A stretch of DNA of 40,683 nucleotides from Candidatus Treponema merdequi (GTDB taxonomy: Bacteria > Spirochaetota > Spirochaetia > Treponematales > Treponemataceae): contig JAGHVB010000010.1 in assembly GCA_018064525.1 (NCBI GenBank), positions 1 to 40,683 of the forward strand, written 5' to 3'. Below, piece after piece: positions 5,587-8,924 of this stretch. The position numbers were made by a program, and so were the translations under genes. Under the pieces are notes generated by a model. The model worked only from the letters and a program-made list of their open reading frames with translations, was not told the DNA's origin and ran no database searches. Each line of letters opens with the position of its first letter. The first letter of the stretch is position 1.

Positions 5587-7725
5587 ATGAAACTTTCAGA
5601 AATCAAAACGCCTGTCTCTACTTTACACGGAGCAGGAAATGCAACAGTCAAAGCATTATCCAATCTCAATATTTTTACAATAGGTGATCTTCTGTCCTTT
5701 TATCCAAAAGACTATGAGGACAGAACAAAAAGGATTTCTCTCTCAGAATTTAAATCAGCAAAAAAAGTTCATACTGCAGCAAAAGTAATTTCACACGAAT
5801 ACTTTGGTTACGGTAAAATGAAAACATTGAAAATTGTAATTGAAGACACAACTGCAAAAGCAAGTCTTATAGCTTTTAACCGAAGTTTTCTCGAAAAATC
5901 ACTTCCAGTCGGTTCAATCATAAGTGTAACAGGAAGTTTTGAAATAAAATACAACGAACTGCAAAGCTCTTCATTTGAAGCAAATTTACTTTCACAGGAT
6001 GGAAAACTTGAAGACTTTGAAAATTGTGTACTTCCTGATTCAGGAATAATTCCAATATACCATCTGACTCAGGGCATTACACAAAAAGCAATTAAAAAAT
6101 TAATTTTCCAATCGCTTTCACAGTATTCAATCGGAATTGATGATGAAATTCCACAAAACATAATTTCAAAACGCAATCTCTTACAAAAAAAAGATGCAAT
6201 AAAAAAAATTCATCTTCCACAAAATCTTCAGGAAGCACGCGAAGCAGAAAAAACATTAATCTACGAAGAACTGTACAACTTTCAGATAACAATGCTCACA
6301 AGAGCACAAAACCGCAAAGGAATTCTTCCTGAAAAAGAAATTCAATCAGATCAAAAACCGCTGGACTTTTCTCCTTCACAGACATTACTTCTTAATTCAA
6401 TTTCATTTGCATTAACAAAAGACCAGATAAGTGTCATAAACAGAATGAATTCAGAAATTGACAGAGGCTACAAAGAGAGAACAGAAATTTTAAGGCAGCT
6501 TGAAAATTCAAATTCTGCAGACAATTTAAACCAGCAGAATAACTCACGCGTAATACGACATCCTTTTACAATGCAGCGTCTTTTACAAGGCGATGTCGGA
6601 TGCGGAAAAACGCTTACTGCACTTTTTGCAGCCCTCAGAGTCATTGACTGGGGCGGACAGGTTGCCTTTATGGCACCAACAGAAATATTATCAAGACAGC
6701 ATGCAGAAAATATTTCAAGACTTTTAAAAAAGACAGAAATACAGACTGCTTTTTTAACATCGAATGTAAAATCAGCAGGAAGAAAAACTTTATTAAAAGA
6801 ATTAAAATCTGGAAATATTAATATTCTGATTGGAACACATTCTCTTTTTTCATCAGATGTAATTTACAAAGATCTTCAGCTTGCAATCATTGATGAACAG
6901 CACCGATTCGGAGTTTTACAGAGACAGTCGATTGTTGAAAAAGGAAAACAGCTTTTCGGAAATATTTATGCAAGCCCGCATCTTCTGATGATGAGCGCAA
7001 CCCCAATTCCGCAGACTCTTGCTTTAACAGCTTTTGGAGATCTTGATATTTCAACAATCAAAACACTTCCATCCGGAAGAAAGCCTGTTATGACTTATCT
7101 TGTTTCAGAAGAACATAAGACAAATGCATTTAACGCAGTCCGTCAGGAACTGGACAAAGGTCATCAGGCTTACTTTGTTTATCCTGCAATAGAAGAAGGT
7201 GACAACAATGCAGAGAGTGCTTTTGCTGAACTTTCAAAACAATATTTTTCAAATTATAAATGTGCAGTAATTCATTCACGGGTACCGGAAGAACAGCAGT
7301 CACGTATTCTTGATGATTTCAATTACGGAAAAATTCAACTTCTGTTTGCAACAACTGTTGTCGAAGTCGGAGTCGACTGTCCGAATGCAACATGTATGGT
7401 AATTGCAGAAGCAGACCGATTTGGATTAAGCCAGCTTCATCAGCTTCGTGGTCGTGTCGGAAGAGGAAATGACCAGGGATATTGCTTTTTAATCTTTAGA
7501 AAAAACATTACAGAAAACGGAATTGCGCGTATGAAAATTTTACGCGAAACAACAGACGGATTTATAATTTCTGAACAGGATTTAAAACTACGAGGTCCCG
7601 GCGAAATTACCGGAACCATTCAAAGCGGAGCTCTTCAGCTTGGAATTGCAGATCTCGAACGCGATTTTGAAATTTTACAAAACGCCAGAGATGATGCACT
7701 CGAAACCCTTAAGCAACATAATTAG
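5587..7725 (+). CDS. recG: ATP-dependent DNA helicase RecG
   Basis: RecG regresses and restarts stalled replication forks and acts on branched DNA. The 712-residue protein has the N-terminal helical and OB wedge region (about 1-260), then superfamily 2 helicase motifs: I GDVGCGKT (335-342), II DEQH in IIDEQHRFGVLQR, III MSATPIP, V TTVVEVGVDCPNA and VI QLHQLRGRVGRG. It ends with the RecG C-terminal segment LKLRGPGEITGTIQSG. The length is slightly above the usual 690 residues; the extra residues appear as an Asn-rich insert just before motif I (near residues 308-325). There is no Shine-Dalgarno; see the -10 at 5575. Its last 17 nt overlap the 3' end of the convergent sigma-factor gene. Confidence 0.97.
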   Translation: MKLSEIKTPVSTLHGAGNATVKALSNLNIFTIGDLLSFYPKDYEDRTKRISLSEFKSAKKVHTAAKVISHEYFGYGKMKTLKIVIEDTTAKASLIAFNRSFLEKSLPVGSIISVTGSFEIKYNELQSSSFEANLLSQDGKLEDFENCVLPDSGIIPIYHLTQGITQKAIKKLIFQSLSQYSIGIDDEIPQNIISKRNLLQKKDAIKKIHLPQNLQEAREAEKTLIYEELYNFQITMLTRAQNRKGILPEKEIQSDQKPLDFSPSQTLLLNSISFALTKDQISVINRMNSEIDRGYKERTEILRQLENSNSADNLNQQNNSRVIRHPFTMQRLLQGDVGCGKTLTALFAALRVIDWGGQVAFMAPTEILSRQHAENISRLLKKTEIQTAFLTSNVKSAGRKTLLKELKSGNINILIGTHSLFSSDVIYKDLQLAIIDEQHRFGVLQRQSIVEKGKQLFGNIYASPHLLMMSATPIPQTLALTAFGDLDISTIKTLPSGRKPVMTYLVSEEHKTNAFNAVRQELDKGHQAYFVYPAIEEGDNNAESAFAELSKQYFSNYKCAVIHSRVPEEQQSRILDDFNYGKIQLLFATTVVEVGVDCPNATCMVIAEADRFGLSQLHQLRGRVGRGNDQGYCFLIFRKNITENGIARMKILRETTDGFIISEQDLKLRGPGEITGTIQSGALQLGIADLERDFEILQNARDDALETLKQHN

Positions 7726-8548
7726 AAAGATATTTTGCGCGTGACGGTTCATGCAGTCTCATAATTGCACGTTTTTCAATCTGACGGATTCTTTCTTTTG
7801 TCAGTTTGCAATAGTCACCGATTTCTTTCAATGACTTTGGCTCGTAACCATCAAGGCCATAACGCATTGTAATTACAGTCTTCTCATTTGGTTTCAATGT
7901 ATTAAGTGCATTTGAAATATCACTTTTCATTGAACTGTTCAAAAGTTCTTCATCAGGATTTCCAAATCTGCTCTCTTCGATAAAGTCACCGACAGTTGTA
8001 GTTCCATTTTCGCAGGAAGAAACAGGCGCATCAAGAGAAATAAATTCACTGGAAATTGCAAGCATTTCACGGATGTGCTGAGGTTCAAGTTTAAGCATTT
8101 TTCCAACTTCACAAATTTCCTGTTCTTCAGTTTTATTACGGTTTACTGTTTTAAGAGCAGCTCTGATCTGGTTAACTTCTGCAACTTTATTAAGAGGAAG
8201 TCTTACAGGAGAAACTTTTTCGCTCAGAGCTTTTGAAATTCCCTGTCTGATCCACCACACTGCATAAGAAATAAAATGATATCCTTTTGAAACATCAAAT
8301 TTATCAACAGCCGTCATCAAACCGACATTACCTTCACTGATAAGATCTGTCAGATCAAGTCCACGATTCTGATATTTTTTTGCTACATTTACAACAAAAC
8401 GCAGATTGCTTTTTACAAGCTTATCTTTTGCGGCTTTATTTCCACTCTGAGCTTCTTTTGCAAGTTCAATTTCTTCTTCATGTGAAAGCAGAGGAATTCT
8501 GTTGATTTCCTTAAGGTAAATTGCTAAAACATCTTCATCGTGAGTCAT
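7709..8548 (-). CDS. RNA polymerase sigma-70 factor lacking region 1.1 (RpoS/RpoD-like)
   Basis: A 279-residue alternative or group 2 sigma factor. Region 1.2 begins at once (VLAIYLKEINRIPLLSHEEEIELA). Region 2 is strongly conserved (KLVKSNLRFVVNVAKKYQNR, DLISEGNVGLMTAVDKFD, YAVWWIRQGISKAL). Regions 3 and 4 follow (VITMRYGLDG, then the 4.2 helix LTKERIRQIEKRAIMRL). The large N-terminal part of a housekeeping RpoD is absent. I chose the ATG at 8548 because GGAGAA lies 5 nt upstream. A longer in-frame start at 8629 would overlap the sigma-54-type promoter at 8624-8640. The gene converges on recG with a 17-nt overlap. Regulation by RpoN would give a sigma cascade as in Borrelia RpoN-RpoS; the name rpoS is not proven by sequence alone. 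Confidence 0.93.
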   Translation of the reverse strand: MTHDEDVLAIYLKEINRIPLLSHEEEIELAKEAQSGNKAAKDKLVKSNLRFVVNVAKKYQNRGLDLTDLISEGNVGLMTAVDKFDVSKGYHFISYAVWWIRQGISKALSEKVSPVRLPLNKVAEVNQIRAALKTVNRNKTEEQEICEVGKMLKLEPQHIREMLAISSEFISLDAPVSSCENGTTTVGDFIEESRFGNPDEELLNSSMKSDISNALNTLKPNEKTVITMRYGLDGYEPKSLKEIGDYCKLTKERIRQIEKRAIMRLHEPSRAKYLSNYVA

Positions 8549-8623
8549 TTCGGTTCTCCAATAAAAAGAATTTGTAAGTGGAATCGGGTAAAACCTTTTT
8601 CTTTTTTTCTTACATAAGTAATA

Positions 8624-8640
8624 ATGCAAGTTTTATGCCA
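8624..8640 (-). promoter_or_regulatory. Sigma-54 (-24/-12) promoter upstream of the sigma factor gene
   Basis: On the minus strand the sequence reads TTGGCAT, AAAAC, TTGCAT. It fits the sigma-54 consensus YTGGCAY-N5-TTGCW, with the invariant GG and GC correctly spaced. The predicted start is near 8614, giving a leader of about 65 nt to the ATG at 8548, which has a good Shine-Dalgarno. The match is read directly; use by RpoN is inferred. Confidence 0.65.
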
Positions 8641-8841
8641 AGTTTTAAATTTTATAAGCAGAATTTGCCAGACCGCGAAAATTCAACGTTAAAAGGCATT
8701 TTTTTAAAGAAATTTGACTTTTCTGATAATTTTTTATTGACGAATTTCGATTTTTTGCTTATTTTATATAGAGATTATGTAAACTATGAGTAAAATTGAC
8801 ACAGTGTATTAATTTACCACCTTAACTGTATCATTTTGACT

Positions 8842-8924
8842 CACCGTCATGTAATTATTTCATTCATAAACAGAATGCTGATTCCTGACGAACCTCAGTT
8901 TACGAAAAGGAAAGTCTGACGGTG
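8842..8924. repeat. Long-spaced inverted repeat upstream of the sigma factor gene
   Basis: CACCGTCA (8842-8849) and TGACGGTG (8917-8924) are perfect 8-nt inverted arms 67 nt apart. They lie about 230-310 nt upstream of the predicted sigma-54 start and just past the uvrD stop. They could be activator half-sites, the base of an RNA stem, or chance. Confidence 0.3.

Follow-up and report, generated by a model that had tools for sequence, protein, structure and literature searches.

A sigma-54-type promoter motif that stands in front of a gene for a sigma-70-family sigma factor raises the question of whether RpoN drives the production of a second sigma factor and, through it, a further set of genes. 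No regulatory pathway of the Lyme disease spirochaete has been studied more closely than its RpoN-to-sigma relay, which is generally seen as a Borrelia matter. The gene considered here, called sigma1 (7709..8548, minus strand), is present within the window, that is, the whole 40,683-nt stretch of DNA that was analysed. By domain content and by its place in a tree, its product is a sigma factor with regions 1.2, 2, 3, and 4 and no region 1.1, and an earlier note on this DNA had already described it as a 279-residue sigma factor lacking region 1.1; since the genome also encodes a separate, longer RpoD, sigma1 can be classified as a group 2 sigma-70 factor. Comparison of sequences makes it highly likely that the motif is a working sigma-54 promoter and that it feeds a relay from RpoN to this group-2-type factor, most likely by way of an orthologue of the Borrelia regulator Rrp2.

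The promoter element (8625..8641, minus strand) is the 17-mer TTGGCATAAAACTTGCA, read from 8641 to 8625 as TTGGCAT-AAAAC-TTGCA; the earlier note had recognized the sequence and its strand, and its coordinates of 8624-8640 were one base off. The -24 element occupies 8641-8635 and the -12 element 8629-8625, and the GG (8639-8638) and the GC (8627-8626) are separated by 12 nt, the spacing of the consensus YTGGCAYN5TTGCW that had been claimed for them. This copy is slightly off the commonest form, with T as its seventh base and A as the last base of the -12 element. From the standard sigma-54 geometry, in which transcription begins ~12 nt after the GC, a start is predicted at 8614 on the minus strand, giving a predicted 5' leader of 66 nt (8549..8614). 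A GGAG Shine-Dalgarno sequence (8559-8556) is positioned 7 nt before the ATG at 8548, and the motif lies 76 nt from this ATG, both in line with what had been noted before. A longer version of the open reading frame would start with a TTG at 8629. Because this TTG falls within the -12 element and because orthologues of sigma1 align from the ATG at 8548, the shorter start stands, and the earlier argument against the longer one holds. At the other end of the gene, sigma1 runs convergent with recG and shares its last 17 bp with it (7709-7725), and no intrinsic terminator was found between them.

Within the window, TTGGCATAAAACTTGCA marks the sole match to YTGGCAYN5TTGCW with zero mismatches; when 2 mismatches are allowed, there are 31 matches versus 24 expected by chance. 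Since these 31 are hardly above chance, such weak matches carry no meaning and one genome alone is only suggestive; it is conservation that decides. Pattern searches of the whole 2.70-Mb genome give 3 occurrences of TTGGCAYN5TTGCW and 0 of a reversed control pattern. Orthologues of sigma1 are present in 56 of the 59 genomes of the order, the other 3 having weak, paralogue-level matches only, and a -24/-12 element lies upstream of every one of the 56. Throughout the class Spirochaetia, 139 of 146 sigma1 upstream regions score at least 19.5 of 21; shared ancestry means that these regions are not independent draws, but their spacers and leaders have changed freely while the core has stayed the same. 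Among 1460 dinucleotide shuffles of these regions, only one reaches 20 of 21. Across the 138 sites in the alignment, T, GG, T, and GC never vary and CA hardly does, and most spacer positions are unconstrained (<0.6 bit), the exception being the first, which is G or A. Conservation of the GG and GC in relatives, which the earlier note had put forward as a check, is thus seen at the level of both order and class, with N5 varying.

The extent of divergence can be judged from the nearest relative of the window genome (G007), whose sigma1 is 83% identical, with 63% identity at third codon positions. The 59 genomes together contain 132 perfect TTGGCACN5TTGCT sites, of which 25 stand before sigma1, and the motif was confirmed in the named Breznakiella homolactica as well as in several Treponema and Spirochaetaceae assemblies. 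The controls are clean: RpoD-like genes of other phyla (~60) score 18.5 of 21 at best and have no -24/-12 element, and 18.5 is also the best score among spirochaete rpoD genes. The genes adjoining sigma1 vary among families (recG, pyruvate phosphate dikinase, a TPR protein, and others). Thus, the motif travels with the sigma1 gene; as a clue to the regulon these neighbours are not informative. Several of the genomes compared can presumably be named: we take G045 to be T. caldarium, G048 to be T. primitia, G103 to be a relative of T. denticola, the genomes of family f24 to be Borrelia, and G135 to belong to the T. pallidum lineage, its sigma gene lying at the place of TP1012. In one of the 56 genomes of the order (G018) the promoter is found 347 nt upstream of sigma1, displaced by ~260 nt of hairpin-rich repeats within the leader, an array on contig 25 (L078) with copies of TTTATGGGAG.

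The 7 exceptions within the class cluster in 3 lineages. In two T. denticola-like genomes the GG has become AG (TTAGCAT), in one genus of family f30 the GC has become GT (TTGTA or TTGTC), and in family f33 there is no site. Among the genomes of these lineages in which rpoN was sought, all but one contain it. Thus, in some lineages rpoN has been kept while the site has degraded, indicating that the link between RpoN and sigma1 can be lost. Outside the class, the full motif precedes 14 of 40 related sigma genes, which are candidate orthologues, and 5 more of the 40 have a TGGTAY variant; the motif was not found before the Leptospira-like and Brachyspira-like genes in this set. The cascade that the earlier note suggested for this organism is therefore supported, and it is not peculiar to it, since it spans the class Spirochaetia and reaches other classes of the phylum.

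Further upstream lies a non-coding block of ~165 nt (8731..8895, strand not assigned), which is 97-100% identical to that of G007 as compared with 83% for the neighbouring sigma1. It contains a 19-nt imperfect inverted repeat (TGAGTCAAAATGATACAGT / ACTGTGTCAATTTTACTCA), and its fold z-score is about -2 at best. No match to the block was obtained in Rfam or in phages, plasmids, or viral contigs, and it was not found upstream of sigma1 in relatives other than G007. It is possible that the block is an activator-binding region or a small RNA. Elsewhere in the genome, the second exact -24/-12 site precedes a 332-residue protein without a Pfam match, and the third is upstream of a divergent polysaccharide deacetylase (PF04748); the two loci are on contigs 49 and 85 (L031 1501-2525, L033 42-1517). 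Another good site, TGGCACGAAAGTTGCT, is found on contig 51 directly before a 60-residue peptide (L111 1537-1719, after 23463). This peptide has a leader of the double-glycine type (ELNNVVGG) and may be a secreted product under RpoN control.

The proteins needed for sigma-54-dependent initiation, whose presence the earlier note had asked to be checked, are encoded in the genome. RpoN is complete: the activator, core, and DNA-binding domains are all present, as is the RpoN box ARRTVAKYR, although the match to the DNA-binding domain is split in two, which is also seen in some close relatives. There are three enhancer-binding proteins (PF00158), among them the orthologue of Borrelia Rrp2. This protein is a response regulator of REC-AAA+-Fis architecture that carries GAFTGA, and its gene, on contig 15, immediately follows one for a histidine kinase; over its full length the protein is 55-57% identical to the sole activator (Rrp2) of four Borrelia-type genomes. 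The other two are a GAF-AAA+ protein on contig 80 and a third, shorter one on contig 78. If the promoter were real and one of these two were its activator, the signal would differ from that of Rrp2. In favour of such an arrangement are the presence of three candidates and the lack, upstream of the promoter, of a conserved palindromic site that would assign one of them, as only two palindromes with 6-bp arms, neither convincing, were found there. However, the Rrp2 orthologue is the only strong enhancer-binding match in 8 congeneric species with a retained promoter, some of these single-activator genomes being incomplete drafts, and in the GAF protein the loop contacting sigma-54 reads GAFTDA instead of GAFTGA. 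A different activator seems unlikely, if still worth considering. In Borrelia, activation of rpoS by Rrp2 needs no enhancer (Blevins et al. 2009, as cited in PMC11109971), and the same mode of action would be consistent with there being no clear activator site in the present case. Given the full-length match to the Borrelia protein and its standing as sole strong hit in the 8 species, the Rrp2 orthologue is the likeliest activator of the sigma1 promoter.

Two other explanations question the promoter itself or the identity of the gene that it serves. The motif might be a chance match or a relic, with sigma1 expressed through a sigma-70 promoter or through transcription running on from uvrD. One weak sigma-70-like match on the same strand (GTGTCA-17-CATAAT, 8802-8774) could be cited in its favour, but sigma-70-like matches near sigma1 are no more numerous than expected by chance, and the near-universal conservation in the class around a free spacer, together with the shuffles and the clean controls, makes a fortuitous or relic site extremely improbable. 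Alternatively, sigma1 might be the treponemal orthologue of Borrelia RpoS, the Borrelia cascade having been inherited unchanged. The wiring is indeed the same: RpoN and Rrp2 occur in both, and the two sigma-70-family genes, which are alike in length, each follow a -24/-12 promoter. In a tree of 50 sigma sequences, however, sigma1 is a single clade (support 100/99), and Borrelia RpoS falls with another treponemal family, sigma2 (support 100/99); the AU test rejects a topology that unites sigma1 with Borrelia RpoS (p = 0.013), a separation that is good but not final because the Borrelia branches are long. Orthology of sigma1 with RpoS is thus rejected by both the tree and the AU test, and unchanged inheritance of the Borrelia cascade is very unlikely. 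The parallel with Borrelia drawn in the earlier note is accordingly correct for the wiring and incorrect if extended to the sigma gene, which is not orthologous to rpoS.

The reading that remains preferred is a relay from RpoN to sigma1. Considering the conservation of the motif before sigma1, the clean controls, the complete rpoN, and the Rrp2 orthologue, the cascade is very probably real and class-wide rather than peculiar to this organism. In the mechanism that we infer, RNA polymerase containing RpoN would wait at the promoter in a closed complex until an AAA+ enhancer-binding protein, once phosphorylated, opened it, so that phosphorylation would serve as the signal. The protein in question would most probably be the Rrp2 orthologue, acting together with its partner kinase, a histidine kinase. 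The resulting transcript would yield the group-2-type sigma-70 factor, which would then redirect RNA polymerase to a gene set of its own.

The second family, sigma2, is 33-39% identical to sigma1, and a -24/-12 promoter precedes 17 of the 18 sigma2 members checked as well as 4 of 5 Borrelia rpoS genes. The sigma2-like gene of the window's own genome (L344; contig 18, 105557-106186) is short and divergent, encoding 233 residues with the middle part unmatched, and is without a -24/-12 site. The Borrelia-type genomes checked contain no sigma1, only RpoD and RpoS. One of them (G205) has no rpoN match, yet its rpoS promoter and Rrp2 are intact; rpoN is likewise missing in B. hermsii and B. turicatae (PMC3162934). 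Another (G165) has rpoN and a degraded rpoS promoter (TTGACAT..TTGTA). Two distinct lineages of sigma-70-family factors thus seem to be fed from RpoN in spirochaetes, of which Borrelia keeps one. This could represent either the ancestral state or two origins. The chances are about even that ancestral spirochaetes ran two parallel RpoN-fed factors from one Rrp2-type two-component system, and that Borrelia, including the Lyme agent, retained the RpoS branch alone, whereas treponemes, the syphilis lineage among them, retained the second branch, which is uncharacterised.

A literature search, with partial coverage that did not extend to subscription papers, turned up the Borrelia cascade and found no description of an RpoN-sigma1 circuit in treponemes. 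A short note on sigma-N in small genomes, by Studholme and Buck in 2000, reportedly may touch on T. pallidum. Should the circuit be as old as the phylum and have a further output that is still unstudied, most treponemes would possess a master switch that seems to have been overlooked, and the signal protein of this treponeme switch, Rrp2, would already be known by orthology.

It thus appears that a two-step RpoN relay is common among spirochaetes and that its second step involves a different protein here. The closest known system is the Rrp2-RpoN-RpoS (sigma-54/sigma-S) cascade of Borrelia burgdorferi (PMC11109971, PMC3037356, PMC2940757), which shares with the present one RpoN, an activator of REC-AAA+-Fis type that is orthologous, and the placing of a -24/-12 promoter immediately upstream of a sigma-70-family gene of comparable length. 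The two differ in the second step, where the sigma factor belongs to the RpoS lineage in Borrelia and to the sigma1 lineage here. The sigma2 factors of Treponematales, which are the relatives of Borrelia RpoS, also have -24/-12 promoters but form a clade separate from sigma1. Conversely, the nearest relatives of sigma1 in the tree, the RpoD of Bacteroidota/Gemmatimonadota and the RpoD-like factors of Leptospira-like spirochaetes, are without the -24/-12 promoter that marks sigma1.
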